Source: Paraburkholderia sp. BL23I1N1 (lineage in GTDB: Bacteria > Pseudomonadota > Gammaproteobacteria > Burkholderiales > Burkholderiaceae). From it: a DNA stretch of 64,000 bases. Below the pieces are notes generated by a model. It made no database searches. It saw nothing but the letters and a program-made list of their open reading frames with translations, and had not been told where the DNA came from. This document shows positions 1 through 32,150 of this stretch, in pieces. Positions within the stretch are counted from its first letter, which is position 1; each line of letters opens with the position of its first letter. The stretch covers positions 2,666,001 to 2,730,000 of the forward strand of contig NZ_RAPV01000001.1 of NCBI RefSeq assembly GCF_003610295.1. The letters run 5' to 3'. A program made the position numbers and the translations under genes.

Positions 1-1888
1 ACTTATTTATGGGTATAGCAGTGCACAATTCGAGCGGGTGGCAAGGGAAACCTCGTGAGTATCTCTTTGAATGCGGCCCATGGAATGGTGCTTTTGGACG
101 ATCTGCTCGATAGCCACTTGCGCCAACAGTGGGCGGCGAAATATCTTAGCCTCCCGATGCGCTTGGCGTTACCGCTGATGCCAAAGTAGGCGTAATGCCC
201 CTTGAGCATCCTGCCGAGCTTCTGATGCTGATCCCTGATCGGCCAGTGCCGCATGGCGCGACACTGCTGGTTGATCTCCTTCAGGGCGCGAGCCAAGCGA
301 TCCTTGGCCGTCAGTTGCCCTGGCATCGGCCCTCCCTTCCTCGATTTCACCCAGACATGCGTGAACCCGAGGAAGTTAAAACTCGTCGCTAGCGCCTTAT
401 CGTCCTCTTCCTTCGCAGACTTCGGCCTGTAGCGGAAATCGACCATGGCGGTCTTGTCCGGGTGAAGCTCCAGCCCGTATTTCCCAAGCCGCTTACCCAG
501 CACCTCCAGCACTCGCTGCGCGTCATCCTTATATGCAAATAGCATGACAAAGTCATCCGCGAAACGCACCAGCGTGCTCGGCCCTCTCAAGCGTGGCTGC
601 ACCTCATTGCTGAACCATTCGTCGAGCACATAGTGCAGGAATACATTGGATAACAATGGGGAAGCAACACCGCCTTGAGGCGCGCCCGTTTCGGAAAAGG
701 ACAACTGTCCACCTTCCATTACACCCGCCTTCAACCACTTATCGATCAGCCTTCTGACTATCCCGTCAGTGACCCGTCGGGCTAAAAACTCCCTCAGTTT
801 TGCGTGCGAGATGCTGTCGAAGAATTTCCGAACATCCACATCTAACACCCATCGCCCACCATTCTTGGTGATCCCGCTTCTGATCGCTTGCAGCGCGTCG
901 TGCGCGCTGCGTCCACGGCGGTAGCCGAAGGAACTGTCGCTAAAGTCGATCTCATAGACCGGCTCCATCAGCAGAACGATGGCACGCTGTGCCACCTTGT
1001 CCTCAAAAGAAGGAATTCCAAGACCGCGTTGACCGCTGCCATCTGCCTTGTCGATGTAATGACGGCGAACCGGCGGCGCACGGTAGCTGCCCGATTTGAG
1101 CCGGTCGATCAGGCTGGTCAGATTCTGCTCCAGATTGGCAGCGTAATCTTCTCCGGTCTGACCGTCGACTCCCACCGCGCCATCCTTGCGCGTGCAGTCG
1201 TATGCATACCTGACCCATTCATAGTCGATGTGATGGGCCAAGGTGGTCAATGTCATCGCCGGGTTGTTTCTCGCCAGCTCGGCTATTCGTTCCTGTTTCG
1301 TTGACACGCTTTCAGGCTTCAATGTTCCTCCGTGTTTCTCATGAACGATTCTGTACAACGACGCCTCCCTTTCCTCGACCGGGTCCGCCCGAGCGGCGTT
1401 CCCCGGCGTCATCAGTACTATGAAGGCGCTAAGACTTCCTGTGCCGAATACGAGGTCGCTTATGGATTCGCTTGCTCGCTCCAATCCTTCCTCTCCTCGT
1501 TTTGCTCCTTGCGGCGGAGAGCCCCGCAAGGTGTGGCCCGGTTTATATCGCCCCGTGCCTCAGGGCCCTACAAGATCGGTCGAACACAGGACCTCCCAGG
1601 TTCCTGGGGAATCCATCCTCGCACCTTTGCCCTGCTCTCGGACCCCGGTCGGTCTGGCGAGCCTCACCATTACGGCTCGCACAGTGCTGTCCCCAGTGTT
1701 CGGAAAGTGAAGACACCAACAGTTGATTATCTCGAGGCTCAATCACATGGCTTCGGTACCTGCTGCCTACGCTTCAAGTAGTGCGTCACCGCACTCGCAT
1801 GCAAGGCTCGCTTCCGGCTGGTGGCTAGCCTTTACCGGGAGGGAGTCGAACCCTCTGGATTCCAATGACTGGTTTCCGCAATACACAC
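1..1888 (-). mobile_element. Group II intron, 5' part plus ORF; 3' end outside window
   Basis: A maturase-type reverse transcriptase gene lies on the minus strand, and several hundred non-coding bases precede it that can form RNA stems, for example a perfect 5-bp stem with 7-nt loop at 1839-1855. Two candidates fit the GUGYG consensus for an intron 5' end: minus-strand GTGTG starting at 1888 and GTGCG starting at 1794. The first lies just inside a CCAGGC/GCCTGG hairpin at 1901-1915, beside an IS630 remnant. The 3' domains V and VI would lie left of position 1 and cannot be checked. Presence of an intron is well supported; its exact boundary and class are not. Confidence 0.7.
3..1412 (-). CDS. 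ltrA: Group II intron reverse transcriptase/maturase
   Basis: This is an LtrA-family reverse transcriptase that would assist splicing and mobility of the host intron. The RT palm is clear: VDVRKFFDSI carries one catalytic Asp, the GAPQGGVASPLLSN block follows, and the catalytic centre reads FADD, a variant of YADD. A maturase-like C-terminal segment (GHYAYFGI) follows, and no HNH endonuclease domain is visible, as in endonuclease-free introns. The frame is open upstream to 1529, but family similarity begins at MTPGNAARA, so the ATG at 1412 is preferred (469 aa). The stop is at the window edge and the protein looks complete. Assignment is secure; intron class is not. Confidence 0.9.
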   Translation of the reverse strand: MTPGNAARADPVEEREASLYRIVHEKHGGTLKPESVSTKQERIAELARNNPAMTLTTLAHHIDYEWVRYAYDCTRKDGAVGVDGQTGEDYAANLEQNLTSLIDRLKSGSYRAPPVRRHYIDKADGSGQRGLGIPSFEDKVAQRAIVLLMEPVYEIDFSDSSFGYRRGRSAHDALQAIRSGITKNGGRWVLDVDVRKFFDSISHAKLREFLARRVTDGIVRRLIDKWLKAGVMEGGQLSFSETGAPQGGVASPLLSNVFLHYVLDEWFSNEVQPRLRGPSTLVRFADDFVMLFAYKDDAQRVLEVLGKRLGKYGLELHPDKTAMVDFRYRPKSAKEEDDKALATSFNFLGFTHVWVKSRKGGPMPGQLTAKDRLARALKEINQQCRAMRHWPIRDQHQKLGRMLKGHYAYFGISGNAKRIGRLRYFAAHCWRKWLSSRSSKSTIPWAAFKEILTRFPLPPARIVHCYTHK

Positions 1889-15687: not shown

Positions 15688-15866
15688 TATTACCTGCGCC
15701 CGATCCATGTGCCCCTCGTGAAGACTCAAGTCTCGCAAGCGAACGTCTCGTTTTCGCGACGGCCAAACGAGAATTTTCAAGCGTGCTACAACTGAGTACG
15801 TTAATGAGTACATTGGCTCGATAAAAACTTTATACTTTTTTATAAATCATATGGTTATGATTTTTC

Positions 15867-15883
15867 ATTCGAGTCCTCTCCTG
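15867..15883 (+). repeat. Putative left attachment site (17-bp direct repeat)
   Basis: ATTCGAGTCCTCTCCTG is repeated exactly at 32134-32150. It looks like a tRNA T-loop and T-stem 3' side; here it is followed by GGCACCA, completing a tRNA-like 3' end. A P4-type integrase starts 160 bp inside. The upstream half of a tRNA is absent. Confidence 0.7.
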
Positions 15884-15959: not shown

Positions 15960-16043
15960 GTTCTCTACAGATCCCTTGCGTTCCACTGACATCGACGTTT
16001 TTTGCGTATACTGTTGCGTATACCAGATTCGGGGGGCAAACCC

Positions 16044-17276
16044 ATGCCCAGACGCGTCGAACCAAAGTCAGAGTTAGTGTTCCGTGCCGCCAAAGCGCGC
16101 GTCCGTTCCTACCTTCTCGCGGATGGAAACGGACTCGCCCTGAGGGTTCAGCCGAACGGCACCAAAACCTGGCTGTTCCGCTATCGACGACCGGGCACAG
16201 GCAAGGAGAACTTCCACAGCCTGGGCCCCTACCCCGATATCACGCTCACGGATGCGCGCCGGTCAGCCGCTACCGCACGTAGTCTTGTACGTGAAGGCAC
16301 AGATCCGGTCGAACATCGCCGGGCCGAATTCGCCGCCCGCAGACGTGTAGCCGAAGGCGCCTTCCATCTCGTGGCCCAGCGCTGGCTCGACTTCAAGCAC
16401 AAGGAATGGGCAGACGAGACCTACCGGAAAGCGGAGTTCGTTGTACGCGAATATCTGACTCCCGCGCTACGCAACAAGCCCATCTCGACACTTGCCACGC
16501 CGGAGGTTAAGCCCGTACTCGAAGCGATTGCCACGCACGCGCCTAACCTCGCAACCAAAGCACGTCAGTTTCTCGGTGGCATCGTGACATACGCAGTCCA
16601 GAACGGACTACGCGAAGATGGCGCTGCCTTGACACTTCGTGGCGTTGCGCCGCGTCACAAGAAAGGCCACATACCAGCGATAACCAAACCGACAGACATC
16701 GCCCCGCTCGTTATTGCTATCGATGCGTACAAGTCACCCCTTACCCGTGCCGCCCTCAAACTCACCATGCTGACTGGCCTTCGGCCCGGCGTCGTTGCCT
16801 CAGTGCCGTGGGACGAAGTGAACTTGGAAACAGGCGAATGGCACGTCGCTGCCGAGCGGATGAAAATGCGGCATGATCACATCGTGCCATTGCCGAAGCA
16901 GGCGATCGCCGTCCTGAACGAGTTGCAGTTACTTACCGGTAAGGGGCACTACGTCTTTCCGTCCCCTGCCCGCCAGAAGACTCCTCATTTACATCGAGAT
17001 GCATTGAGCAAAGCACTGCGAGAGATGGGCTTCCAAGGGAAACACGCGACGCACGGTTTCCGGGGCATGCTTCGTACTGTCGGACGAGAACGACTCGGTA
17101 TGGATATCGATGTTCTGGAAGCGCAACTGGCACACGCCAAGCGTGGCGATGTGCAAAAGGCCTACGATAGAACAACGTTTGACGATGATCGTCGCAGGGT
17201 CATGCAGGAGTGGGCCGATTATATTGACCGCCTAAGCGTGCCAACGACAGAAGTGGGATCAAGCAAGCGAACCTGA
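16044..17276 (+). CDS. int: P4-type tyrosine site-specific integrase
   Basis: A 410-aa integrase with the DUF4102 N-terminal arm-binding domain (LRVQPNGTKTWLFRYRRPG, then LGPYPDITLTDAR). The tyrosine recombinase catalytic domain follows: first Arg in TGLRPG near residue 250, HGFR near 335, and the final LAHAKRGDVQKAYDR with the nucleophilic Tyr near 373. P4-type integrases insert at the 3' ends of tRNA genes, which fits the tRNA-like repeats. The ATG at 16044 gives the usual N-terminus. The gene is intact, so excision may still be possible. Confidence 0.93.
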   Translation: MPRRVEPKSELVFRAAKARVRSYLLADGNGLALRVQPNGTKTWLFRYRRPGTGKENFHSLGPYPDITLTDARRSAATARSLVREGTDPVEHRRAEFAARRRVAEGAFHLVAQRWLDFKHKEWADETYRKAEFVVREYLTPALRNKPISTLATPEVKPVLEAIATHAPNLATKARQFLGGIVTYAVQNGLREDGAALTLRGVAPRHKKGHIPAITKPTDIAPLVIAIDAYKSPLTRAALKLTMLTGLRPGVVASVPWDEVNLETGEWHVAAERMKMRHDHIVPLPKQAIAVLNELQLLTGKGHYVFPSPARQKTPHLHRDALSKALREMGFQGKHATHGFRGMLRTVGRERLGMDIDVLEAQLAHAKRGDVQKAYDRTTFDDDRRRVMQEWADYIDRLSVPTTEVGSSKRT

Positions 17277-18822: not shown

Positions 18823-20586
18823 TCAATCGGGACAGTATTGTTGGCTCGAGGCGGAGCCAAGGCCAACGGCAGGTTCAGGCTTATGGAGGTATTTCAGTAA
18901 TCGAGCAATTTGCTCCTGTGTTACGGGAACCCCTGCCGCCTCTGGCGTCTGGACTCTCCCGTCAAGCAGAATAAAGCTAAATCCAGCCCCAGCTCCCTGG
19001 GCATTGCCGTGGCACCCCATACAGCCACCCATGTTTACCGTACTGCCGTTATAACGCACGTTAGCAAGTGCTTTATAGGGGGGCGATTTATCGAAGTCAC
19101 TAATGGTTAATTTTTTTGGCGTGTCATTAAAACCATCAAACACACCACTAAATTTCTGGAGGTTGTAATCGGTTTCAATTACACTATTGGATTGATAATA
19201 GGTTGAAGCATCCGGTTTGCTATAATCAATACTAGACATCTTGCCTGGAAGAGGAGTAGCCTGCACATTTATGAGTTTGTAATATGACCACACCGAATTT
19301 GGAGCCCATTTCCCGAACTTCTCTTTTGTATATGCAGAAATTGCCTCATGAGCGAGCTTATTGACAGCAATGATATCGTCAGGTATTCGATTAATTCTCT
19401 GATTAACGAAAATTATGCCATCAGCAGGAAGTCCGGTATTCGGCGTGTTCTGGTAGTAAAGTCGTCCACCTGGATTAGTCAAGAACAGACCAAGAGGATA
19501 GAGGTATTGTGTCGCCCCAGGTTTGGCATTTACTGAATGAATGTCCGGCCTTAGCGACGCCTCAAGAGAATAATCATATTTGAATTTCCCGTTCTCGTCC
19601 TCCAAGGCATTCCCATTCGAATCCGTGATGTTATCTGCTTGCTCGAACGTCGCATAAATGAAGTATGGCGCCGAATGCGTCTTCTGAATGATATGCAATC
19701 CGACGAGGCCCAGTTCATCGTCAACGTAACGAATATTCTTACCCGTTCCCATGTAGTACCGCACACGGGTTGTGTAGAAACGTCCAGACCACTTCTCACC
19801 CGATGTCAATTTGCGCCAGGCTGCCTTGATCTCAACAGAACCGTATGGAAAGCTCACGCAGCTCTTGGATCCAGCCGGCGGATCTGCGGATTTTGAATTA
19901 ATATAGTTTTTCGTGGCCTTGAACATTTTAATACGGTTAGCCTCATCCCAAAGGCGCTTGGATGCAATATATTTATATTCTACGCGATTCGCCTTCGCCA
20001 TGAACAAGATCTGACTATCGCTTCCCTTCAATTTCCCCGATACAACGCCGGCATATATTTGGTCAAGGGATATCTGACTATTTTCATCGAGGTTGATCCA
20101 TGGAGCCGGCCCAGCTGGTTTTATCAACCCATTTTCATAAATGTAGGCCGGGCGGACATCGTAGCCATAATCGGTCGCACTATTATTCTCATATCCTGGT
20201 GGATCAACCAAACCACCCGGGAAGATCTCAACCTTTCCGCGAAAGGTATGCCATACCAGCGGATTTGGAGCAGGATCCCCAAACAGCTTCGATGTATCGG
20301 GCGTATCTCTCGGAGAAAGATTATCGGTTTTGGCGACTGCCGGCCAGTTCAACGCGATGAATTCTTCCCACGCGAACTGCGCAGCCTGCTGCGGCGTTGC
20401 GTTCGATGCGCCACCAACTATATCGGAAGGAAAATTCGAACTTATTGAAATTTTAATATTCGGTTCGCCATTATTAGAACTCTCGCAAATTCCCGTTCGA
20501 GGGTGAGCCATGAGGAAAGTTACACTCGCCATCAACATAATGGTGCGCCTCCGGCGGGCGGAGGGCGCAATGGAAAAATCGAACAT
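18823..20586 (-). CDS. Large exported protein with one c-type heme motif
   Basis: A 587-aa protein with a basic N-terminus (RRRR) and hydrophobic stretch consistent with a signal peptide ending near residue 36. A single CMGCHG heme-binding motif lies near residue 525, inside a C-terminal cytochrome-c-like segment (GGCMGCHGNAQ); the ~480 residues before it have no recognised domain. The gene is more AT-rich than its neighbours, which suggests a different origin. The ATG at 20586 has AAGGAAAG upstream. A second, shorter protein of similar design is encoded at 23856-25157. A role as electron acceptor for the nearby GMC dehydrogenase is inference. Confidence 0.75.
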   Translation of the reverse strand: MFDFSIAPSARRRRTIMLMASVTFLMAHPRTGICESSNNGEPNIKISISSNFPSDIVGGASNATPQQAAQFAWEEFIALNWPAVAKTDNLSPRDTPDTSKLFGDPAPNPLVWHTFRGKVEIFPGGLVDPPGYENNSATDYGYDVRPAYIYENGLIKPAGPAPWINLDENSQISLDQIYAGVVSGKLKGSDSQILFMAKANRVEYKYIASKRLWDEANRIKMFKATKNYINSKSADPPAGSKSCVSFPYGSVEIKAAWRKLTSGEKWSGRFYTTRVRYYMGTGKNIRYVDDELGLVGLHIIQKTHSAPYFIYATFEQADNITDSNGNALEDENGKFKYDYSLEASLRPDIHSVNAKPGATQYLYPLGLFLTNPGGRLYYQNTPNTGLPADGIIFVNQRINRIPDDIIAVNKLAHEAISAYTKEKFGKWAPNSVWSYYKLINVQATPLPGKMSSIDYSKPDASTYYQSNSVIETDYNLQKFSGVFDGFNDTPKKLTISDFDKSPPYKALANVRYNGSTVNMGGCMGCHGNAQGAGAGFSFILLDGRVQTPEAAGVPVTQEQIARLLKYLHKPEPAVGLGSASSQQYCPD

Positions 20587-21371
20587 GGCCGTCTTTCCTT
20601 TTCAGATATTCGTGACAACTTGCCACTATGATATGAAGAATAAAATACTGTGTGCCTCGACTGTTGTCAAGGTAATCGACGTGTCACTTCATGCCGACCG
20701 TTTTGGCTGCAATATAAATATGCCTGATGAATCGATTTCGAATAAATCCCGGCTAAGTGTTATGAAAAGCATCCGATGTGACGCAACGTAATGCGTAGCT
20801 AGTTCGGTCGATTCGCGATATTGAAGATGCCAATTGCATGCAGAAGGTGGAAAAAGAAACAGATGAAAGGCAGCGTGTGTTGCTCAGAGCATCTGTACGT
20901 CACCGGTTCGCGCAATTTCCCCCTCAAACCGTTCTTTGGCGCGGTCTCCGGGAAGCATCATAAACTGCCGCCGACCATCCCATTCGGATGTGTGTCGCGG
21001 GATGCGGCTAGCATCCGTAGATTGCCGTAGATTGCCGTAGATCGCCGGGTTGCCGACCCTATCGACTTCGGCCTCGTCAAGCGCACGCTATCCGCTTGAT
21101 AAATCGGTAGGACAATACGCCGATAGCTGAGTCGCCGCCAAGTTTAGGGCTCTCCAAGCAGAGATATTCCCTACTCCGCTGATTCACCTAAATGTGAATT
21201 CTCAGCCAAATCATGAAATTTCGCCACTCGAGCCGGAGAAGCGTAGAAAGCGGAGACCGCGCCAAAGCGGGGGGCTGCAATCGGGTTTGCGACTAAGTGT
21301 TCACGAAAAAACTACTTGCAATTTCGAACCATATCCGGTGAGTAGAATTTCCGGTTTTGATAATCATATAG
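20587..21371. other. AT-rich stretch without convincing gene
   Basis: About 785 bases hold only short frames without family similarity. The left 200 bases contain the promoter region of the heme-motif gene. A 10-bp tandem repeat is at 21017-21046. The right part leads into an IS110 end. Confidence 0.6.
21017..21046 (+). repeat. Three tandem copies of GTAGATTGCC
   Basis: Units at 21017-21026 and 21027-21036 are identical; the third, 21037-21046, has one change (GTAGATCGCC). It lies in non-coding DNA and no function is evident. Confidence 0.8.
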
Positions 21372-21617
21372 CCGGCCTCCCTCCGTTGAGGTAGAACGGC
21401 GAGCGTAGAGTCGAGGTGCGAACAGCGACGTGACGCACAGGAGGCCGGCATGAACAAGTTTAGTGGAATTGACCTGCACTCGAACAACAGTGTGGTCGTA
21501 GTCTGCGATGAAGCGGACCGGGTTGTCTACCAGCGGCGGTTACCGAACGATCCGGTGCAGATCCGGGCAGCGCTGGCACCGCATCGCGAAGATCTGGTTG
21601 GAGTGGTTATCGAAGCA
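21372..21617 (+). mobile_element. IS110-family left-end fragment with transposase N-terminus
   Basis: A non-coding lead with GCCGGCCTCC...GGAGGCCGGC inverted segments precedes the ATG at 21450. The frame then reads NKFSGIDLHSNNSVVVV, the start of IS110 DEDD transposases, with the first Asp, and continues to VGVVIEA with the next acidic residue. It stops where the IS6 terminal repeat begins at 21618. Only ~56 of ~340 codons remain. Confidence 0.85.
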
Positions 21618-22302
21618 GGTTCTGTCGCGGCAAGGCGATTTGGGCGAACGATATCGATATGATAAGGATTGCTTACATCGCCAACGAGTAGAATTGCCGG
21701 GCGGCCGATGGCTTGAGTTTGCGTGCGTCTTTCATCTGCCCTTTGGCGATCATATGCATGAGTTCGATGCCACTCAACAAGATGCGGGCACAACGAAAAT
21801 CATGGAATCCCAACATGGGCCGGGTACGGCGCTTGATCGCCCGATGGTCTTGTTCCACGATATTGTTCAGATACTTGGCCTGGCGGATCTTGATGGGCGT
21901 CTCACGCTCAGTATTCACGGCATGTAACCCGGCCAGATTGGCACCGCTCCTGTCGATGGTTACGGTTTCAGGGGCGCCATTCTGATCGATGGCCTTCTCG
22001 AAGTACCGTCGGGCCGCCTGCTTGTCCCGCTTGGCTCGCAGCAGGAAGTCAACTGTGTTGCCGGCCTTGTCGACGGCGCGGTAGAGATACTTCCATGTGC
22101 CACGGACCTTCACATAGGTTTCGTCCATCCGCCAGCTCTTACCGACCGGGCGCTTGCAGCGACGGAACGCCTTTTCAAGCACCGGCAGAAGCTTGATGGA
22201 CCAGCGGTGCACGGTCGAATGATCGACCGCGATCCCCCGTTCGGCCATCATTTCCTCAAGAAGGTCCCGCAGCATACCAGCCTCCGCTATTGCAACAGAA
22301 CC
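21618..22302 (-). mobile_element. IS6-family element, internally deleted
   Basis: Terminal repeats GGTTCTGTCGC (starting 21618) and, on the minus strand, GGTTCTGTTGCAATA (starting 22302) delimit 685 bp. An intact relative at 30703-31521 is 819 bp, so about 134 bp near the transposase 5' end are missing. The flanks differ (IS110 on one side, IS3 on the other) and no 8-bp target duplication is present. It therefore marks an IS6-mediated rearrangement rather than a simple insertion. Confidence 0.8.
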
Positions 22303-22944
22303 GCCTGCGGTGCCCATCGATGGCTGCACACCTGCCTCGCGGCAGCGGCGTCCGAAGGCAATCGACGCATATTGGCACCCCTGATCCGAATGATGAATCA
22401 CGCTCACGGGCCGCCGCTGCGACAATGCCATGTCCAGTGCACGTAGCATCAGTTCGGTGTACAGATGGTTCGACATTGCCCAGCCCACGATACGGCGGCT
22501 GAATACATCAAGCACTACGGCCAGATACAGGAACCCTTCGCCTGTCGGAATGTAGGTGGCGTCAGCCACCCACAGCACGTTCGGCGCGGCGGCGCTGAAG
22601 TGGCGGCGCACCAGATCGGGCGCGCGCCGCGCTCCCGCACGCTGGTGTGTGGTGAGCTTCCAGCGCCGGCGACTGGCCCCGCACAGACCAGCCAGATGCA
22701 TCAGACGCGCCACCCGTTTGCGTCCCACGTGCACTCCCTCACGCGCGAGCTGCGCGTGAATACGGGGTGCGCCGTATGTGCCGCGCGAGCTCGCATGCAG
22801 GGTGCGGATGCGCCCCAGCAGCTGCGCGTCACTGCATGCATGCGCCGATGGCTCCCTTGCCAGCCACCCGTAATAGCCGCTCGTGGAGACCCTGAGCAGC
22901 CGCGCCATCGTGGCGATGGGCCAGCGGGCCCGGTTCGCTCTCAT
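21673..22944 (-). CDS. Chimeric transposase: IS3 OrfB N-part fused in frame to IS6 DDE domain
   Basis: Residues 1 to ~213 are IS3-family OrfB: HTH-like start, TYGAPRIHAQL, then the rve core with Asp in VADATYIP and Asp in HHSDQGCQY. The frame crosses the IS6 terminal repeat and continues from about residue 227 as an IS6 transposase (ERGIAVDHSTVHRW, Asp in RMDETYVKV, Asp in TIDRSGAN, Glu in IVEQDHR) to the normal IS6 C-terminus. The IS3 half lacks its final catalytic Glu; the IS6 half lacks its N-terminal DNA-binding region. It is almost surely an accidental product, though uninterrupted over 423 aa. Confidence 0.85.
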   Translation of the reverse strand: MRANRARWPIATMARLLRVSTSGYYGWLAREPSAHACSDAQLLGRIRTLHASSRGTYGAPRIHAQLAREGVHVGRKRVARLMHLAGLCGASRRRWKLTTHQRAGARRAPDLVRRHFSAAAPNVLWVADATYIPTGEGFLYLAVVLDVFSRRIVGWAMSNHLYTELMLRALDMALSQRRPVSVIHHSDQGCQYASIAFGRRCREAGVQPSMGTAGGSVAIAEAGMLRDLLEEMMAERGIAVDHSTVHRWSIKLLPVLEKAFRRCKRPVGKSWRMDETYVKVRGTWKYLYRAVDKAGNTVDFLLRAKRDKQAARRYFEKAIDQNGAPETVTIDRSGANLAGLHAVNTERETPIKIRQAKYLNNIVEQDHRAIKRRTRPMLGFHDFRCARILLSGIELMHMIAKGQMKDARKLKPSAARQFYSLAM

Positions 22945-23302
22945 GAATCCGTATCCTTCGGCGATACGGCTCCCGTCTCCCGGGCAAACCAGGCCGCTGC
23001 GTGAGAGAGGATGTCTCTTTCCATCTTCAGTTGCCGGTTCTCGCGACGCAGCCGCGAAAGCTCCTGCCGCTCGGCGGTGGTCAGCCCGTCATGGCGCGTG
23101 CCCGCGTCACGCCCGGCCTGCGCCACCCAGTTATAGATGCTCTGCGCGGTCGGCTCGAACTCCTTTTCCAGTTCCTCCGGCGTGCGCCCGGCCTTCACCA
23201 GCTCAACCATTTGCGCCCGGAATTCCGCCGGGTACGGGGTACGATGCTTGCCCATTTCGGCACCTCCTCTTCAAAAGGATAGGCGTCCGTTTTTGCGGGT
23301 CA
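22303..23302 (-). mobile_element. IS3-family element, 3' part lost
   Basis: The outer end at 23302 reads TGACCCGCAAAAACGGACGCC on the minus strand, a typical IS3 terminus. OrfA and most of OrfB follow with the usual overlap, then the element is cut by the IS6 repeat at 22302. The right terminal repeat is missing. Confidence 0.85.
22941..23255 (-). CDS. IS3-family transposase OrfA
   Basis: A 104-aa protein with the IS3 OrfA helix-turn-helix (YPAEFRAQMVELVKAGRTPEELEKEFEP, SIYNWV) followed by a leucine-zipper-like coiled coil (ELSRLRRENRQLKMERDIL) and the frameshift region AAWFARE. Its end overlaps the OrfB start, as expected for -1 programmed frameshifting that makes OrfAB. The partner OrfB is truncated and fused, so the element is not active alone. 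Confidence 0.92.
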   Translation of the reverse strand: MGKHRTPYPAEFRAQMVELVKAGRTPEELEKEFEPTAQSIYNWVAQAGRDAGTRHDGLTTAERQELSRLRRENRQLKMERDILSHAAAWFARETGAVSPKDTDS

Positions 23303-23391
23303 ACTTCAGTCTCTGGGCAAGGGAGATGTTTACGATACAGCATCTTCAGTCGAGGCTTCGTCCCTCGAACCCCGTCCACTCGCATCGAAAT

Positions 23392-23820
23392 TCAACCGCC
23401 TGCCGAGCAAGGGTCTGGGATAAACAAGTCCTTGGCACCCGGCTTCAGTACGACATAGGCCCGTTTCCAGGGTTGATCGCCTATCATGCGCCACTCGTGA
23501 CCGCTGCCGGCAGTATCCTCGGCGATAAGCACATCGCCGGTTTGCAACAGAAAAGTTTCACCATCTCGGGTTTTGAATTGCAGTGTCCCCGATAGGGTAA
23601 TAACGAACTGTGCCTCGGGAGCGTTGTGCCAGGCGAATGATCCGTATGCGGGCGTCTCCTTGAAGTGCACGGCCACGACTTCGGTACGGAAATTCTCACT
23701 TACCGTTCCCTTAAGCACGTGCGATGCATTATCTCGACCCATATAGAGTTTGTATGCCCGAATCGCGGATCGCTGATTTGTAGCTGCATCCGACGCATCG
23801 TTCTCTGTTGCTTCGCTCAT
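23392..23820 (-). CDS. Cupin-domain protein
   Basis: A 142-aa single-domain cupin. The core shows the two cupin motifs: motif 1 around GSFAWHNAPEAQFVITLSG (His and Glu metal ligands) and motif 2 around LLQTGDVLIAEDTAGSGHEWR (final His). No signal peptide is present, so it is cytosolic. A perfect GGAGGT precedes the ATG at 23820, 35 bp after the heme-motif gene, so the two are probably co-transcribed. It could be a small dioxygenase, isomerase or sensor; function is not determined. Confidence 0.85.
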   Translation of the reverse strand: MSEATENDASDAATNQRSAIRAYKLYMGRDNASHVLKGTVSENFRTEVVAVHFKETPAYGSFAWHNAPEAQFVITLSGTLQFKTRDGETFLLQTGDVLIAEDTAGSGHEWRMIGDQPWKRAYVVLKPGAKDLFIPDPCSAGG

Positions 23821-23855
23821 TTTTTACCTCCGGGAAAAAGAATGGTGGCCGGACG

Positions 23856-25157
23856 TCACTGAACGCCCGCGCGCGACAATGGTTTGTTCTTGTCGTTGTG
23901 TACCTGCTTGACTTGTGCCGCCGGCATCGACGTCGGGAAAATATTAGGGTGTGTCTGCAGGAAATTGACCAACCCCACTTCGAGCTGCAGCGAGTAGTCA
24001 AGCGGCTTACGGCCGGAATCGAACGGCTCCCCCGATGGAATGTTGCGGAACCATCGTGCGACATTGTCGCTGCCTGAAGGCACCATCTGGCCTTGCGGCA
24101 GCTCAGCCGTCGAGTGGCACGACATGCAGGACGAATTCGGGTTGTCGACGGGGCCGTTCAGTCGCCCCTGGTATCCGACGTGCGACATGTGGACGTCCGG
24201 GTTCAACCAGGTCTGCTTCAACTGACCGGTGTTCGGGTATTCAGGATCGTTGCCCCACATCACACCCACGGGAAAGACATTGCGCCAGCCAGTAACAGCC
24301 GGATCCGATGCGTGTCCCGGACCGCCGCCATAGATGAACGTGCCGAATATCCAGCCAGTTTCTTTCGCACGGCTGTCTTTCACGGCAATATCAATCTGAA
24401 GCAGACGCACCTTCTGGATCGAGCGTATGTTCAGCGGATGCAAGCGTGAGTCACCCACCCCGGTGTAGACGTAGGCCTGCCATTCAGGCGAACCTGCCAG
24501 ATACGGAACCTGATCAACGGGTGCCGTCGTAAACAGCAGCTTGGCCGCCACCGTTCCCTCTGGCATATCGGCGAGATCGGGGTTGGGATCGCCATGCTTC
24601 GCCCAGACCTTGCCGATCGTTACACCGCCCGGCGCATTGTAAAAGCCGACGGCATAGTTGCTCCATTGCAGTGTCTGCTTCGGATCCAGCTCCTGGCTGA
24701 GCGACGTCCGCTCGCGCGTCAGTCCGTGGACGAATTCCCGGCCGTTCACGCCATGGTCCTGCCATGGCGCGTTATACCAGCCGCGCACGGAATTCAGCGC
24801 TGGATCGAAGCTGTCTTCGACGCTGGAGCGGATGTTCCCTTCATAGAAGTACCCGAGCACGGATTGAAGATATTGCCCGGGTTCAGTGTAGGGGTTGAGC
24901 TTCAGCCAGGGCTGCGCATCGGTCGGCGCAGTCGACGGATAGTTTTGCGCCAACCTGAAGATATGCCCGCTCCAGCCGGCGATGGGCTTCATGAGCGCAT
25001 CGCAAAACGGGGTCGTCGGCGTATCGCAGTTTTTTTCCGTCGGCTGCGCAATGGTCTGCCCGTGCGCAGTCAGCACGATCGCGGCGGTCGCTGTCGCCAC
25101 GCCGAGTGAAATCATCGTTTTCGATGCAGGCAAGATACGCACGGATGCAAATAACAT
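23856..25157 (-). CDS. Exported protein with one c-type heme motif
   Basis: A 433-aa protein with a signal peptide (hydrophobic residues 15-32, ending near AHGQ) and a single CMSCHS motif near residue 345. The N-terminal ~340 residues include many Trp/Tyr/Pro and contain no domain that can be named. Overall design parallels the 587-aa protein at 18823-20586: long unknown region, late CxxCH, then a short tail with FLQTHPN. The ATG at 25157 follows GGGGGAT. It is divergent from the dehydrogenase genes that start at 25440. Electron transfer from the GMC flavoprotein is a reasonable but untested role. Confidence 0.75.
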   Translation of the reverse strand: MLFASVRILPASKTMISLGVATATAAIVLTAHGQTIAQPTEKNCDTPTTPFCDALMKPIAGWSGHIFRLAQNYPSTAPTDAQPWLKLNPYTEPGQYLQSVLGYFYEGNIRSSVEDSFDPALNSVRGWYNAPWQDHGVNGREFVHGLTRERTSLSQELDPKQTLQWSNYAVGFYNAPGGVTIGKVWAKHGDPNPDLADMPEGTVAAKLLFTTAPVDQVPYLAGSPEWQAYVYTGVGDSRLHPLNIRSIQKVRLLQIDIAVKDSRAKETGWIFGTFIYGGGPGHASDPAVTGWRNVFPVGVMWGNDPEYPNTGQLKQTWLNPDVHMSHVGYQGRLNGPVDNPNSSCMSCHSTAELPQGQMVPSGSDNVARWFRNIPSGEPFDSGRKPLDYSLQLEVGLVNFLQTHPNIFPTSMPAAQVKQVHNDKNKPLSRAGVQ

Positions 25158-25439
25158 AAAATCCCCCTATTTTTATAGCGTTTATCTTTTTTCAGAAGAT
25201 CGAAAATGAACAACATTAACGGCTGCGAAGCCGCTTGCAATACCTGTCAACCTTGGCAGGTACCAATCTGCTCCTAGCCTCAATACATTATTGCAAGCAA
25301 TGCTAATGAAAAAGAGAAAAAATGTTTTTTGCATAAAAATTAGCATCCGGCGAGAAATATCGGATTCGTTTTTCTAAAAAATCCAATGGAAACGTGAAGT
25401 GTTGGTTTCCGTTCCATTTCAATTCGTGGCGGGCAAAAC

Positions 25440-25907
25440 ATGGATTCCCACAATACCGACTCCGTCGATGAAAACGCGCAGCGCCTTTCGATATTTCTGA
25501 GAGGCAGCGCCAGAATTCTCGAGTTCTCGTCGATCACACTGCTGGGCACGGGCATCGGGTCGACGCTCTGCGACTTTTTCATCGAGCAGCTTGGGCAAGA
25601 GCGATTCGACGCATGGAGCGAGCGTCTCGCGGCGCTGCCGCCCGGCGGCCCGGACAAGGCGCAAAAAGTCGAAGCGCTGCTCGCCGACCCCGCGGACGGC
25701 CCGCCAACCAGGAACCTGATGTACGCGTGGTACACCGGCACATGGAACGCGATCCCCGGCGTGCCCAACGACGCGACCCGCGTGATTTCGTCGCGCGCGT
25801 ACCAGGAGGCGCTCGTGTGGCCGCTCATCGGCGCTCATCCGGGCGGCGCGAAGCAACAGGGCTGGGATGCATGGTCCCGGCCGCCTTCCATGTCGCCGTT
25901 GCGCTGA
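25440..25907 (+). CDS. Putative small subunit of a GMC-type dehydrogenase
   Basis: A 155-aa protein. The N-terminal region (FSSITLLGTGIGSTLCDFF) and the pattern RNLMYAWYTGTWN ... SSRAYQEALVWPLIGAHPGG resemble the gamma subunits of bacterial FAD-dependent glucose/sorbitol/gluconate dehydrogenases, which chaperone or export the flavoprotein. No twin-Arg signal is evident here, unlike many relatives. It directly precedes the GMC gene (118 bp). Assignment rests on pattern plus context. Confidence 0.6.
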   Translation: MDSHNTDSVDENAQRLSIFLRGSARILEFSSITLLGTGIGSTLCDFFIEQLGQERFDAWSERLAALPPGGPDKAQKVEALLADPADGPPTRNLMYAWYTGTWNAIPGVPNDATRVISSRAYQEALVWPLIGAHPGGAKQQGWDAWSRPPSMSPLR

Positions 25908-26025
25908 CGCAAAGCCGCTACGCGCGTCACTGCGTACGTCGCGGCGCACATCACAGCGCATGTCATTGCGGACGCCTCCGGGCGTCTACCGCCAGGCACC
26001 ACCTGGCTCCAAACCGGGGATTCAG

Positions 26026-27873
26026 ATGAAAATCGAAGCGGCTCAAACTGCGCTCGCGCGCCATTACGATGTCGTGATCGTCGGCGCGGGCATTTCGGGG
26101 GCGATCCTCGCGCGGCGTCTGGCCGAGCGCCGGCGCCGTGTGCTCCTGCTCGAAGCGGGCACGGGTTCGGGCCTGAACTTCACGCATTACACCCAGTTTC
26201 TGGAGACTTTCTATCAGGAGCAGATCAAGATTCCGCAGGCGCCCTATCCGAACAACCCGAACGCGCCGCAGCCGAACGAACTGCAAACCGCCATCACTGG
26301 AGAGAACGAGGAGCCCGGCGACGGCTATTTCGTTCAGCGCGGCCCGCATCCCTACCGCAGTTCTTATACGCGCTATACAGGCGGCACGACGCTGCACTGG
26401 TTGGGCACGTCGTTGCGGATGCTGCCCGACGATTTTCGGATGCGCTCGCTGTACAACGTCGCGCAGGACTGGCCGCTGCAATACGAGACGTTTTCTCGCT
26501 ACTACGAAGAGGCCGAGCGCGAGATCGGTGTGTCGGCGAATGTCGAGGAGCAGGCATATCACGGCCAGTTTTTCCCGCATGGCTATGTGTACCCGATGCA
26601 CGGTCTGCCGCAGAGTGTCGTCGACCAGACTATGGCCGAATCGCTGAACGGCCGCACCTATGAGATCGACGGCGATGTGCATCCGCTCGGCGTGATATCC
26701 ACGCCGGCCGGGCGCAATGGCGTGCCGAATGCAGCCTACGACGGCGGCAAAGGCTACCAGCCGGTCGGTTCGGTCAGCTCCCGGGCAGTCGGCCATCGCT
26801 GCATGGGCAATACGAGTTGCGTGCCGATCTGCCCGATACAGGCAAAGTACAACGCGATGAAGACGCTCGTTGCGAGCCAGGGCGATCTGGTTACGCTCGT
26901 CACCCAATGCGTCGCGAGCGAGTTGCTGATCGATCCGGACACCGGCCGCATCACCGGTGTGCGTGTGAAGAGCTATGCGAAGCCCGGCGAACCCGAGCAT
27001 CAGACCTACGTTGCGCACGGCGACGCGGTCGCGCTGTGCGCGGCACCCGTCGAGAATGCGAAGCTGCTGCTCGCATCGGGCGCCGCGCGCACCAGCGGCC
27101 TCGTCGGCGTCGGGCTGATGGACCACCCGGTGTTTCTGACGTGGGGGTTATTGCCGCGCCAGGTCTGGCCGTTCCGCGGACCGCTCGCGACCTCCGGCAT
27201 CGAGGGGCTGCGCTGGGGCCGCTTTCGTGGTCGGCACTCGTCGTTTCGCATCGAGATCGGCAACGACGGATGGGCATGGCCGACCGGCGCCCCCGCGCAA
27301 GACGTGCAGGACTGCCTCGATGCAAAGCTGTGGGGACGAGAGATGCAGCGCGCACTGGTCGATCGCGTGACGCGACAGGTGCATCTGTCGTTCCTTGTCG
27401 AGCAACTGCCCGAAGCGGGCAACAAGGTCACGCTCGACGACCGCTATCGCGACGCGCTCGGCAACTACAGGCCGGTGATCCACTACAACATCAGCGACTA
27501 CACGCGCGGCGGTTTCGCGCTGGCAAGCAAGGTGGTCGAGCGGATTTTCCACCATTGCCGAATAGCGAACCATACGAAATATAACGATCAGTACCCCCAT
27601 TTCGACTATGGCGGTACACCTTTTAACTATCAGGGCGCCGGTCATTTCATGGGTGGTCACCGAATGGGTAATCATCCCAACGAGTCGGTCGTCAACGCCG
27701 ATCTGCGCAGCTGGGATCACAAAAACCTCTACCTGGTAGGCTGCGGCAGCATGACCACCAGCGGCACGTCCAACCCCACGCTGACCGCCGCCGCGTTGAG
27801 CTGCCTCGCGGCGGACCGGATCGACGCGGCACTGGGCCGCCACGCACAGCTAGTTACGGGAGAGACCGCATGA
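26026..27873 (+). CDS. GMC family oxidoreductase with cysteine cluster (FAD-dependent dehydrogenase type)
   Basis: A 615-aa flavoprotein. FAD-binding VIVGAGISGAILARRLAE is at residues ~17-34. The GMC signature region (TRYTGGTTLHWLGTSLRM) is near 115. A cysteine cluster, C259, C265 and C269 in CMGNTSCVPICPIQAKYN, matches the iron-sulfur-binding segment of bacterial FAD glucose/gluconate/sorbitol dehydrogenases. The C-terminal GGHRMG and SGTSNPTLTAAAL carry the catalytic His/Asn region. The ATG at 26026 is preceded by CGGGGA; the frame is open further upstream without similarity. With the small subunit and the secreted heme proteins it suggests a periplasmic substrate oxidase feeding a cytochrome. 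The substrate is unknown. Confidence 0.88.
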   Translation: MKIEAAQTALARHYDVVIVGAGISGAILARRLAERRRRVLLLEAGTGSGLNFTHYTQFLETFYQEQIKIPQAPYPNNPNAPQPNELQTAITGENEEPGDGYFVQRGPHPYRSSYTRYTGGTTLHWLGTSLRMLPDDFRMRSLYNVAQDWPLQYETFSRYYEEAEREIGVSANVEEQAYHGQFFPHGYVYPMHGLPQSVVDQTMAESLNGRTYEIDGDVHPLGVISTPAGRNGVPNAAYDGGKGYQPVGSVSSRAVGHRCMGNTSCVPICPIQAKYNAMKTLVASQGDLVTLVTQCVASELLIDPDTGRITGVRVKSYAKPGEPEHQTYVAHGDAVALCAAPVENAKLLLASGAARTSGLVGVGLMDHPVFLTWGLLPRQVWPFRGPLATSGIEGLRWGRFRGRHSSFRIEIGNDGWAWPTGAPAQDVQDCLDAKLWGREMQRALVDRVTRQVHLSFLVEQLPEAGNKVTLDDRYRDALGNYRPVIHYNISDYTRGGFALASKVVERIFHHCRIANHTKYNDQYPHFDYGGTPFNYQGAGHFMGGHRMGNHPNESVVNADLRSWDHKNLYLVGCGSMTTSGTSNPTLTAAALSCLAADRIDAALGRHAQLVTGETA

Positions 27874-29097
27874 AACTGATCGAACAAGTCCGCCTGCTGG
27901 ACGGCTACAAGGAATCGAAGGCGCGCAGCGCCTACGACCCTGAGCATTCGGATCTGCCGCCCACACTGCCGCAGCCCCGGTCTCGATGCAACCATTCCGA
28001 CGCTCGACCGGAGCTTCCGCGAACTGGCCGATGCGATCGGTTCGACCAGCTTCGAAGCCGACCGTGCGGATCTGCTGAACGATTTGCAGCATGCACTGAA
28101 GCTCGAGCACGCGACGATTCCGCCCTACCTGACTGCCCTCTACACGCTTGCGCCGAAGAGCAGCTGGCAGGCAATCGAGGTGCTGCGCTCGGTTGCCGTC
28201 GAAGAAATGCTGCACCTGACGCTGGTCGCGAACCTGATCAATGCGTTGGGCGGTACGCCGCGCACCGGCGAACCCTCGTTCATGCCGGACTATCCGTCAC
28301 CATTACCGCTCGACATCGACGGAATCGTTGTCAACCTGTACGGTTTTTCACGTGAAGCGGTCGAGCAAGGCTGCGCGATCGAACGGCCGAGTACGATCCG
28401 CCCCGAGGTGCTGTTCTCGGCAGAACCTGCCGACGGCGACATGACGATCGGCGAGTTCTATCTGCGCATCGAAGCGAAACTGCGCGCGCTCGTCGAACGC
28501 TACGGCGAAGCGCTCGTGTTCAGCGGGCATCCGTCGCGCCAGGTCACCGCGGACTACTACTATGACGGCGCCGGTGGGGCGTTTCCTGTTACCGATATTG
28601 TGTCGGCGCTGCTCGCGCTACAGACCATACGCAACCAGGGCGAAGGCGTCACCGACAAAATCTGGACAGGCAACCGCGAACAGTTCAAGGGCTTTCCTGA
28701 AGTCGCGCATTACTTCCGCTTCAGCGAGCTGCTCGCGGGACGCCAGTATCAATGGAACGACACGGTCGAGACCGGCCCGCGCGGCGCGCCCTTCGAAGTC
28801 GACTGGTCGGCCGCGATTCCGGTCAAGCCGAATTGCAAGCTGGCCGATTTCCGGCACGCGTCGGAGCTTCACGAGAGCGCCGCGGCGTTCAACGTCGCGT
28901 ACTGGGATTTCCTGCGCATGATTCAACGCGCGTTCGACGGCGAGCCGGGGCTGCTGCAGCAAGGCATCGGCGGCATGTTCAGGCTGAAGGACCTGTTCCA
29001 GCGGCTCATCAACACCCCGCTGCCCGGCGACCCGCAAGGTCGTCATGCCGCACCGACCTTCGAATATGCGCCGCCATCGGTGTCCCCAGCGCGCTGA
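27870..29097 (+). pseudogene. Ferritin-like protein (iminophenylpyruvate dimer synthase type), one frameshift
   Basis: The start ATG at 27870 overlaps the GMC stop. The first ~36 codons read in one frame and the rest in another. Removing one C from the CCCC run near 27976-27979 joins them as LPQPGLDATIPTLDRSFREL. The main body has the di-iron ferritin-like pattern KLEHATIPPYLTALY and VEEMLHLTLVANLINALGG, as in the VioB/RebD C-terminal domain that couples imines of aromatic amino acids. The longest uninterrupted frame starts at 28084 and keeps the metal-binding helices, so it might still yield protein. Frameshift versus sequencing error cannot be decided here. Confidence 0.75.
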
Positions 29098-29131
29098 CGT
29101 CCACTCCCCTCGCTCCAAACAGGAGATCGCA

Positions 29132-30004
29132 ATGCCGACCACCCTTCCTTCAGTACCTGCGCCGCTTGCGTTGCCGTTCTACTATGCGTCGCTCGTCAAC
29201 TGCGTTGTGCACTATCTGGTAGACGCGCGGCACGTCGAGCCGTTCCTGGTGAAGACGCCACTCAGGGCCGCGCTGTTCGGTGGCCGCGCGTCGGTCGCGT
29301 TCAACTTCCAGGCGTATTCGGCGCAGTTTTCCGGTGGCCGCGGCGTGCCAGCCGCGCAGTGGCCGGCCAGTTGCATCGGCGTCACGCAGGAGCTCGAGTT
29401 GAATATCGTCGCCTATCCAGCCGCGCAGGCTGCGCTCTTGCCCGAAGTGAGCTTTGAGCAATGGGTAATGGGAGACGAGCAGAGCAAGCTGATGGGCAAT
29501 CATCGCGTGTTCGTGCCGTGCGACAGCGACAACGCGATTCAGGCCGGCATCGAGCTGTTCGGCGAGCCGAAGTTCAAGACCACGTTCGGTGTGAATCTGC
29601 CGTCGTTCAATCCGGTACGCAAAGCCGGCGTGTCTGTTTTCGAACCCGACTGGGTCGACGCGTGGAGCTTCAGGGTCAACGACCCGGAAACGCCGGCCAA
29701 CGATATCTTCACTTGCGTGGCGGATCTCGCGGGGCTCAGGCCGGCACCTGGCAATCTGTCGTCAATAGTTGAGTACGGTGCGCACGACAACCGCGCGATC
29801 GCATGCCGCTGGAACATCCTGCAGCCGCTCGATACGTATTGGCTGACTGCCGACGACGCGCGTCGCGTGACGCTCAGCTACGGCCGCAGCGGCCACCCGA
29901 TGCAAAAGGCGATGAAGGAGCTGCTCGACGGCGCGCACGCGCAAGCGGTGCAGACTTTCCTGTCGGCGCCGGCCGCGATTCAGAGCCGCGCGGTGTTCAT
30001 CTGA
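29132..30004 (+). CDS. Conserved protein, possibly acetoacetate decarboxylase-like fold
   Basis: A 290-aa soluble protein with no signal peptide. GIELFGEPKFKTTFG in the middle resembles the EIWGFPK active-site segment of acetoacetate decarboxylases, with a Lys two residues after the Pro, but the rest is divergent. AGG-rich AGGAGA precedes the ATG at 29132. It follows the ferritin-like gene by 34 bp and is probably in the same operon. Decarboxylase, lyase or structural homologue without that activity are all possible. Confidence 0.5.
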   Translation: MPTTLPSVPAPLALPFYYASLVNCVVHYLVDARHVEPFLVKTPLRAALFGGRASVAFNFQAYSAQFSGGRGVPAAQWPASCIGVTQELELNIVAYPAAQAALLPEVSFEQWVMGDEQSKLMGNHRVFVPCDSDNAIQAGIELFGEPKFKTTFGVNLPSFNPVRKAGVSVFEPDWVDAWSFRVNDPETPANDIFTCVADLAGLRPAPGNLSSIVEYGAHDNRAIACRWNILQPLDTYWLTADDARRVTLSYGRSGHPMQKAMKELLDGAHAQAVQTFLSAPAAIQSRAVFI

Positions 30005-30098
30005 TTCGAAGGGATTCTTGCCGCGGTACTTCTGCCGCGGCGGTCTCGTCGCCTGAACGCCGCTTTGTCACAGGCTTTCAGGCTTTTTTTGCTGGCGC

Positions 30099-30500
30099 TC
30101 ACCGCTGCGCGTTGGTAGCGGTGATAAACGGATCAAAGCCCTGTACGATTTTGTTGTTCAGTTTCAGATACATCCGGTACTCGACTTTGTTGCCCGCGCA
30201 ATTTATTTTCCCACCCCAGGTGTCGCTATCCGTTTGCGGATACGGAGCCGGATTGATCATGCCCGTCGTCTTGATGTCGCCCTCGAAGTGATCGATTGAA
30301 ACATGCTGATCCGGATCGATCGAGTCGACTCTCCACACGATCTTATCGCCGTTCTCGCAGACCGTGCTCAGCTCATCGCCACCCTCACCGGCCGACTGCC
30401 CCGTCAGAGAGTCGTCCATCATATAGACATAGTTCCCCAGCTCCCCGGTCGCAATTGCCTGAGCTACGTTGACCGCTACCAGAATATTGACTTGTGACAT
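30099..30500 (-). CDS. AidA/PixA-like protein
   Basis: A 133-aa cytosolic protein. The N-terminus SQVNILVAVNVAQAIA, internal NYVYMMDDS and C-terminal KVEYRMYLKLNN...DPFI match the AidA/PixA inclusion-body family, which is common in Burkholderia and Xenorhabdus and often under quorum-sensing or stationary-phase control. Molecular function is unknown in the family. The ATG at 30500 has GGAG ten bases upstream. It is convergent with the preceding operon. Confidence 0.75.
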   Translation of the reverse strand: MSQVNILVAVNVAQAIATGELGNYVYMMDDSLTGQSAGEGGDELSTVCENGDKIVWRVDSIDPDQHVSIDHFEGDIKTTGMINPAPYPQTDSDTWGGKINCAGNKVEYRMYLKLNNKIVQGFDPFITATNAQR

Positions 30501-30702
30501 GACACGCTCCATTTGAAGGTGAAGTGAACTCCCGGCTTGCATCACAAAAACGGCATTCGAAACTGAAAATCACAACAGAAGCGCAGCAATCAGGGACGTC
30601 TTAAATACCTTGCAAAGCGGGCGAATGTCTTGTCGTTCAGTGATTTGCTGTCCCATTCCGGTGCCTCGACCGGCGCATCGAACAGGATGAAGCTGAAATC
30701 TC

Positions 30703-31964: not shown

Positions 31965-32133
31965 CGCCAGTGCTTCCAGCCGGTTCCAGCAACTTGCGGT
32001 GTTCGTCGAAACGCAGCTTTGGCACATAGAAGCGGGCTCTTACCGGGCTGAGCCAACTCGATCCGCTTCGTTTGCGTATACTCGCGACTTGACATGAATT
32101 AAACCATCTTAAATTCAATAACTTATACGCTTT

Positions 32134-32150
32134 ATTCGAGTCCTCTCCTG
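32134..32150 (+). repeat. Putative right attachment site (17-bp direct repeat)
   Basis: An exact copy of ATTCGAGTCCTCTCCTG at 15867-15883, followed by CACCA, so again close to a tRNA 3' terminus. It lies 16,267 bp from the left copy and closes the island. Confidence 0.7.

Follow-up and report, generated by a model that had tools for sequence, protein, structure and literature searches.

A recurrent four-gene set joins a GMC flavoenzyme and its small subunit to a PF12902 ferritin-like protein and an acetoacetate-decarboxylase-like protein in a Paraburkholderia island

Given the unusual mixture of redox genes carried between att-like repeats in Paraburkholderia sp. BL23I1N1, we asked which of these genes belong together and what they would do. 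The window analysed is a 64,000-nucleotide stretch of contig NZ_RAPV01000001.1 (positions 2,666,001 to 2,730,000) from an assembly of 9.1 Mb in 4 contigs. It encodes a GMC flavoprotein, its small subunit, a ferritin-like protein with a PF12902 domain, a protein resembling acetoacetate decarboxylase (ADC-like), a cupin, an AidA-like protein and two proteins with a single CxxCH motif each. A sequence-only reading had named all of these genes correctly and had proposed an exported oxidase with heme partners, coupled to a reaction in which an imine or keto acid is dimerised oxidatively, perhaps to make a secondary metabolite. Comparison with related loci confirms the observation and partly supports the interpretation: the small subunit, GMC, ferritin-like and ADC-like genes are a genuine, rare unit that recurs in distantly related bacteria and is smaller than that reading supposed. 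The reading knew of no described system with the combination, and a literature search found no publication on the four-gene set.

Core and passenger genes were told apart by running eight window proteins with tblastn against fetched loci. Nineteen related loci were compared (P. aspalathi counted once), 10 coming from a GMC scan, 4 from a DNA search in which 4 of 20 listed places (109 records) were examined, and 3 more from a search of plasmids with the ADC-like protein, with G872 and G1484 as the remainder; 16 of the 19 entered the joint core alignment and tally, L026, L033 and L043 being left out. At 13 of the 19 loci the four core genes lie on the same strand within 4,195–6,577 bases, namely in P. 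aspalathi, Burkholderia Bp8963, Cupriavidus P-10, four Ruegeria, two Shimia, two Defluviimonas, the gammaproteobacterium G872, and G1484. The order is small subunit, GMC, ferritin-like, ADC-like in the Burkholderiaceae and G872, and ADC-like, small subunit, GMC, ferritin-like in the Rhodobacterales and G1484; because the identical set is found in differing orders, the four genes appear to be functionally linked. In Bp8963, Cupriavidus and G872 the ADC-like gene is followed by an extra GMC-type gene (scanned with Pfam in G872 only). The majority of these loci were reached through GMC or core DNA, so that a start from the ADC-like protein alone is the fairer test. Such a start gave 7 loci (4 plasmid matches, G433, G872 and G1484), with all four core genes in 5 and the GMC and small-subunit genes in 6, the Nocardia match having neither; other queries had likewise led to G433 and the Cupriavidus plasmid, and 2 of the 5 full loci are therefore not new. 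A weak partial match in G106 (E 3.4e-4) stands outside the 7 loci counted. The ADC-like gene is rare.

As the sequence-only reading had described, the block sits between att-like repeats, which are 20 nucleotides long, direct and 95% identical. A tyrosine-recombinase gene lies alongside (Table 1), and the cassette is here cargo of an integrase island of about 16 kb. The host is close to P. aspalathi: positions 23355–30702 show 93.8% DNA identity to strain LMG 27731 over 7,369 columns, and in P. aspalathi the genes for the cupin, heme protein B, small subunit, GMC, ferritin-like, ADC-like and AidA-like proteins form one continuous 7.4-kb block. Since this block is continuous and the core recurs more widely, the gene association was not produced by insertion sequence (IS) elements; the four-gene cassette itself seems to move between genomes. 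Wider recurrence, which had been named as support for a single system, is seen for the four core genes; among the loci compared, the cupin and AidA-like genes were found in P. aspalathi only, and the heme-protein relatives lie mostly elsewhere.

The nearest solved relatives of the GMC protein are glucose and fructose dehydrogenases dependent on flavin adenine dinucleotide (FAD), the best PDB match being the FAD-glucose dehydrogenase 6a2u (E 1.1e-66). Cys259, Cys265 and Cys269, whose earlier numbering is exact with the start at 26026, would ligate a [3Fe-4S] cluster, and these cysteines together with a His/Asn pair are retained in 27 of 27 aligned GMC rows. The Cupriavidus P-10 gene (L031, 11692–13522) reads in two frames; it stands outside this alignment and its motif was compared separately. 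The consulted sections of PMC9727119 describe for bacterial FAD-glucose dehydrogenase (FAD-GDH) a small subunit of the twin-arginine translocation (Tat) type that acts as a hitch-hiker carrier, a Cys213–Cys152 intersubunit disulfide and a triheme cytochrome c. None of the 17 small subunits from the loci compared, those of the window and Azospirillum among them, has RR within its first 40 residues, and none of the 17 has a C-terminal Cys; 3 of 3 canonical small subunits have both. At the 213 position, 18 of 18 motif-bearing GMC proteins of cassette-type loci (window, L021–L025, L027–L032, L034, L042, L044, two in L049, and L099) have Met, Glu, Gln or Val. Another 20 same-genus relatives (L002–L020 and L086, the full triheme operon having been checked in L007, L012 and L086) all have Cys there; the residue is Gly in Azospirillum L033 and Cys in L026. 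No linked triheme cytochrome c was seen at the block, where the two CxxCH proteins carry one motif each. A canonical operon elsewhere in the host (L086) encodes an RR-type small subunit, a CC-motif GMC protein and a cytochrome with three CxxCH motifs. As the Tat motif and both disulfide cysteines are missing and no triheme cytochrome was seen, the core probably resides in the cytoplasm, contrary to the proposal of an exported oxidase that works with heme proteins.

The ferritin-like gene begins where the GMC gene ends, the GMC stop and the following ATG sharing the 4 bp at 27870–27873 that had been noted before. What had been missed is that the frame opened at ATG 27870 is not continuous with the ferritin domain: relative to P. 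aspalathi (L021), where the gene is a single 408-residue frame, a shift lies near 27,976. Residues of the diiron-ligand type are kept in the sequence. The earlier label of a VioB-type protein holds for the PF12902 part and fails for the rest of VioB, profile TIGR04492 aligning over positions 670–833 of 1003 with E 0.0059 and 14.4 bits against a cut-off of 1250. With this protein (A1) as query, matches were obtained in 19 of the 299 genomes that represent the family.

The ADC-like protein scores under the Pfam ADC cut-off, and its predicted model shows the acetoacetate-decarboxylase fold. Lys147 is invariant in 47 of 47 ADC-like sequences and, by its motif rather than by residue alignment, may be the equivalent of ADC Lys115. 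The residue that follows is an invariant Phe; in true ADC a second Lys follows the lysine. A PDB sequence search with ADC profiles returned one antibody match (E 0.005), taken as spurious, and a second such search returned no match. Fusions of ADC-like proteins to a SnoaL-like domain (PF12680) occur in P0106, P0109 and P0117.

Taken as a whole, a model in which the four genes form a cytoplasmic oxidation cassette that makes or alters a small molecule in three steps seems to us somewhat better supported than not. As judged from its relatives, the GMC protein in complex with its small subunit would oxidise a hydroxyl with FAD and pass the electrons to the [3Fe-4S] cluster, the substrate probably being a sugar, a sugar-like compound or a secondary alcohol. 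The invariant lysine of the ADC-like protein could then form a Schiff base with the resulting carbonyl, leading to decarboxylation, aldol chemistry or cyclisation. The ferritin-like protein, as a putative diiron enzyme, may react with O2, or with H2O2 that the flavin gives off, and either act as electron sink or oxidise the product further. The model is built on the gene set and its co-occurrence, the ADC-like fold, the metal-ligand-type residues and the absence of the three export and cytochrome traits, all of them read from sequence or a predicted model, and a biosynthetic role of the gene set is plausible. A bolder version, which we regard as speculative and unlikely, has the diiron protein replacing cytochrome c, so that electrons would run from FAD through [3Fe-4S] and the diiron centre to O2; substrate oxidation would then directly power a diiron oxygenase that needs neither NAD(P)H nor ferredoxin, with the ADC-like enzyme rearranging the doubly oxidised product into a new kind of metabolite.

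An exported GMC oxidase that passes electrons to two exported heme proteins, with a secondary metabolite as product, is improbable given the loss of the Tat motif, the intersubunit cysteines and the triheme cytochrome, even though both CxxCH proteins have signal-like N-termini by eye and heme protein B lies within the P. aspalathi block. Neither heme protein found a match in the compared stretches of L022–L032, L034, L049 and L099, and 5 of the 6 heme-relative neighbourhoods outside P. aspalathi (L045–L048 and L095; 4 of 42 plasmid places examined) contain no core gene, the four plasmid relatives adjoining peptidases, an amidohydrolase and other genes, with no GMC gene there. The exception, and the one result that favours a link, is Azospirillum L033, where a relative of heme protein A (21% identity) stands in a row with the small-subunit and GMC genes. 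A survey of 59 related genomes gave heme protein A once, in its own genome, and heme protein B twice, in its own genome and, at 69% identity and with no core gene alongside, in one other; P. aspalathi has a relative of A that is only 47% identical and lies at the opposite end of the block. Because their relatives sit mostly in other contexts without core genes, the heme proteins look like separate cargo, and on these neighbourhoods we rejected them as core partners.

The ferritin-like protein might instead be a catalase-like peroxide remover serving an H2O2-producing GMC oxidase, with no biosynthetic part, a reading that we hold to be unlikely while giving it some weight. RebD and VioB have catalase activity, and the protein gives a weak Pfam match to Mn catalase (E 0.029); moreover, PF12902 genes adjoin differing systems, including VioB-N-like genes, the GMC gene here and, in fungi, LodA/LodB quinoprotein oxidase genes (PMC4417212). 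The fold comparison with Mn catalase is weak, however (Foldseek E 0.2, TM 0.17), and in some PF12902 relatives (P0214, P0215, P0218, P0219, P0233 and P0239) the domain is joined to Fer4_19 and CDGSH iron-sulfur domains, pointing to an oxygenase that is supplied with electrons. A VioB-like dimerisation of an imine or keto acid has the shared PF12902 domain in its favour and is improbable. Among the eight window proteins scanned against NCBIfam, the ferritin-like one alone matched VioB, outside the N-terminal part, and the partner enzyme here has its relatives among sugar dehydrogenases rather than amino-acid oxidases. At six other Burkholderiaceae loci (L075–L078, L080 and L081), a stand-alone PF12902 gene directly adjoins a separate 638–675-residue gene resembling that N-terminal part; three of these neighbours were scanned, and two gave weak TIGR04492 matches outside the ferritin part. 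The arrangement looks like a split VioB in an ebo-type setting, the further genes at these loci presumably being those of the ebo/EDB cluster; L075 also has a 3-dehydroquinate-synthase-like gene. The NCBIfam scan and these split loci led us to reject dimerisation as the principal interpretation.

Several observations weigh against the cytoplasmic cassette model. The cassette is not invariant, 6 of the 19 loci being partial in the stretches compared: R. etli has no ADC-like gene, Streptomyces no ferritin-like gene, T136 only the small subunit and GMC, Azospirillum only these two and the heme-A relative, and Nocardia only the ADC-like gene, while L026, at a contig edge, has only a GMC gene, with Cys at the 213 position. 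The copy in the window, frame-shifted in the ferritin-like gene when set against intact relatives, is probably decaying, and may be dead, unless the shift is a sequencing error. Export was judged by motif and by eye, not by a signal-peptide predictor, and in-frame stretches upstream of five small-subunit genes (L024, L028, L030, L032 and L042) contain RR, which by eye does not precede a clear hydrophobic stretch. Small-subunit matches to known families are weak, as for the fructose dehydrogenase (FDH) small subunit (E 0.065). The ferritin family is also wider than the cassette: 11 more PF12902 loci in 10 Burkholderiaceae genomes gave no GMC, small-subunit or ADC-like match, and a single clade of GMC-linked ferritins was rejected, as it appears on one side of a branch with support of only 76/67, and with long branches. 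L083 was left out of this tree for too few filled columns, and its 'vioBN' group comprises six rightly labelled rows, L079 (309-residue neighbour) not being VioB-N-linked.

Table 1. Features of the island and its gene block, in window coordinates
Feature	Position	Strand	Evidence or remark
Left att-like direct repeat	15864..15883	.	20 nt, repeat comparison
Island integrase (tyrosine recombinase)	16002..17276	+	Pfam PF13356, PF22022, PF00589
Heme protein A, 587 aa, exported-looking, passenger	18823..20586	-	one CxxCH at 522
Small cupin protein, accessory or passenger	23392..23820	-	Pfam Cupin_2 E 5.1e-07
Heme protein B, 433 aa, exported-looking, P460-like, accessory or passenger	23856..25157	-	one CxxCH at 344
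Small subunit of GMC dehydrogenase, 155 aa, core	25440..25907	+	no Tat motif; weak FAD-SLDH Pfam match, E 0.026
GMC flavoprotein, 615 aa, core	26026..27873	+	FAD + [3Fe-4S] type, Cys259/265/269, catalytic-type His/Asn pair
Ferritin-like PF12902 gene, core	27870..29097 (open part 28084-29097)	+	Pfam E 4.2e-55
ADC-like protein, 290 aa, core	29132..30004	+	acetoacetate-decarboxylase fold (predicted model), invariant Lys147
AidA/MakCD-like protein, accessory or passenger	30099..30545	-	NCBIfam NF049870 E 1.8e-25
Right att-like direct repeat	32131..32150	.	20 nt, repeat comparison

Among the accessory genes, heme protein B gives a weak Pfam P460 match (PF16694, E 0.0053, 17.6 bits against a cut-off of 27), and its Variovorax relative is annotated as cytochrome P460 family. 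The AidA-like protein reaches 89.3 bits with NF049870, below the cut-off of 110 yet related, and is 77% identical in P. aspalathi. In eight Rhodobacterales loci (L023–L025, L027–L030 and L044) the cassette is preceded by a protein of about 1,100 residues, which is not the case in G1484; that of L029 has zinc-ribbon, guanylate-cyclase and AAA domains, the other seven are alike by BLAST or annotation, and L078 has a similar-looking gene near its PF12902 gene. The Rhizobium plasmids L032 and L034 carry luxI/luxR and a glycoside-hydrolase-15 gene ahead of their GMC genes. We did not count quorum sensing as part of the system, though luxI/luxR adjoin GMC genes in these two rhizobial loci: luxI-type matches occur in 11 of 13 records, far from the cassette in the host genome and in Ruegeria profundi (G1353, on another contig), and the search found none in G872 or the Cupriavidus plasmid. 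At window positions 1633–1848, the Rfam model RF02005 for a group II intron domain scores 136 bits.

These results point to a cytoplasmic branch of the FAD-glucose dehydrogenase family that is linked with a PF12902 ferritin-like protein and with an uncharacterised member of the ADC superfamily, with a candidate sequence signature of C-x-GN..C.P.CP lacking Cys at x and a small subunit lacking a Tat motif. If the coupling is true, it would offer a direct route to the role of stand-alone PF12902 proteins beside oxidases, and the cassette singles out a few genomes that could be searched for a new product.

Among known systems, the ADC-like protein shares its predicted fold with MppR (4jmc), Swit_4259 (5upb), Sbi (4zbt) and ADC (3bh2), to which it is 11–15% identical; the invariant Phe after the lysine sets it apart from true ADC. 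VioB, RebD and StaD (IPD or CPA synthase, about 1000 residues) and 3hl1 (CC_0557) have the PF12902 domain in common with the ferritin-like protein, which here stands alone, has no VioB N-terminal match and has a GMC partner. In fungal lodA/lodB loci, according to the part of PMC4417212 consulted, a PF12902 gene adjoins the genes for a quinoprotein amino-acid oxidase and its modifier; the likeness lies in a PF12902 gene beside an oxidase, which there is not of the GMC family. The three-subunit FAD-GDH and FDH (6a2u and 7w2j) appear closest by sequence, sharing with the cassette a GMC-family enzyme that has three [3Fe-4S]-type cysteines and the His/Asn pair, as well as a linked small subunit. 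The cassette differs from them in that no Tat motif, intersubunit disulfide cysteines or triheme cytochrome c were seen, and ferritin-like and ADC-like genes are linked to it instead.

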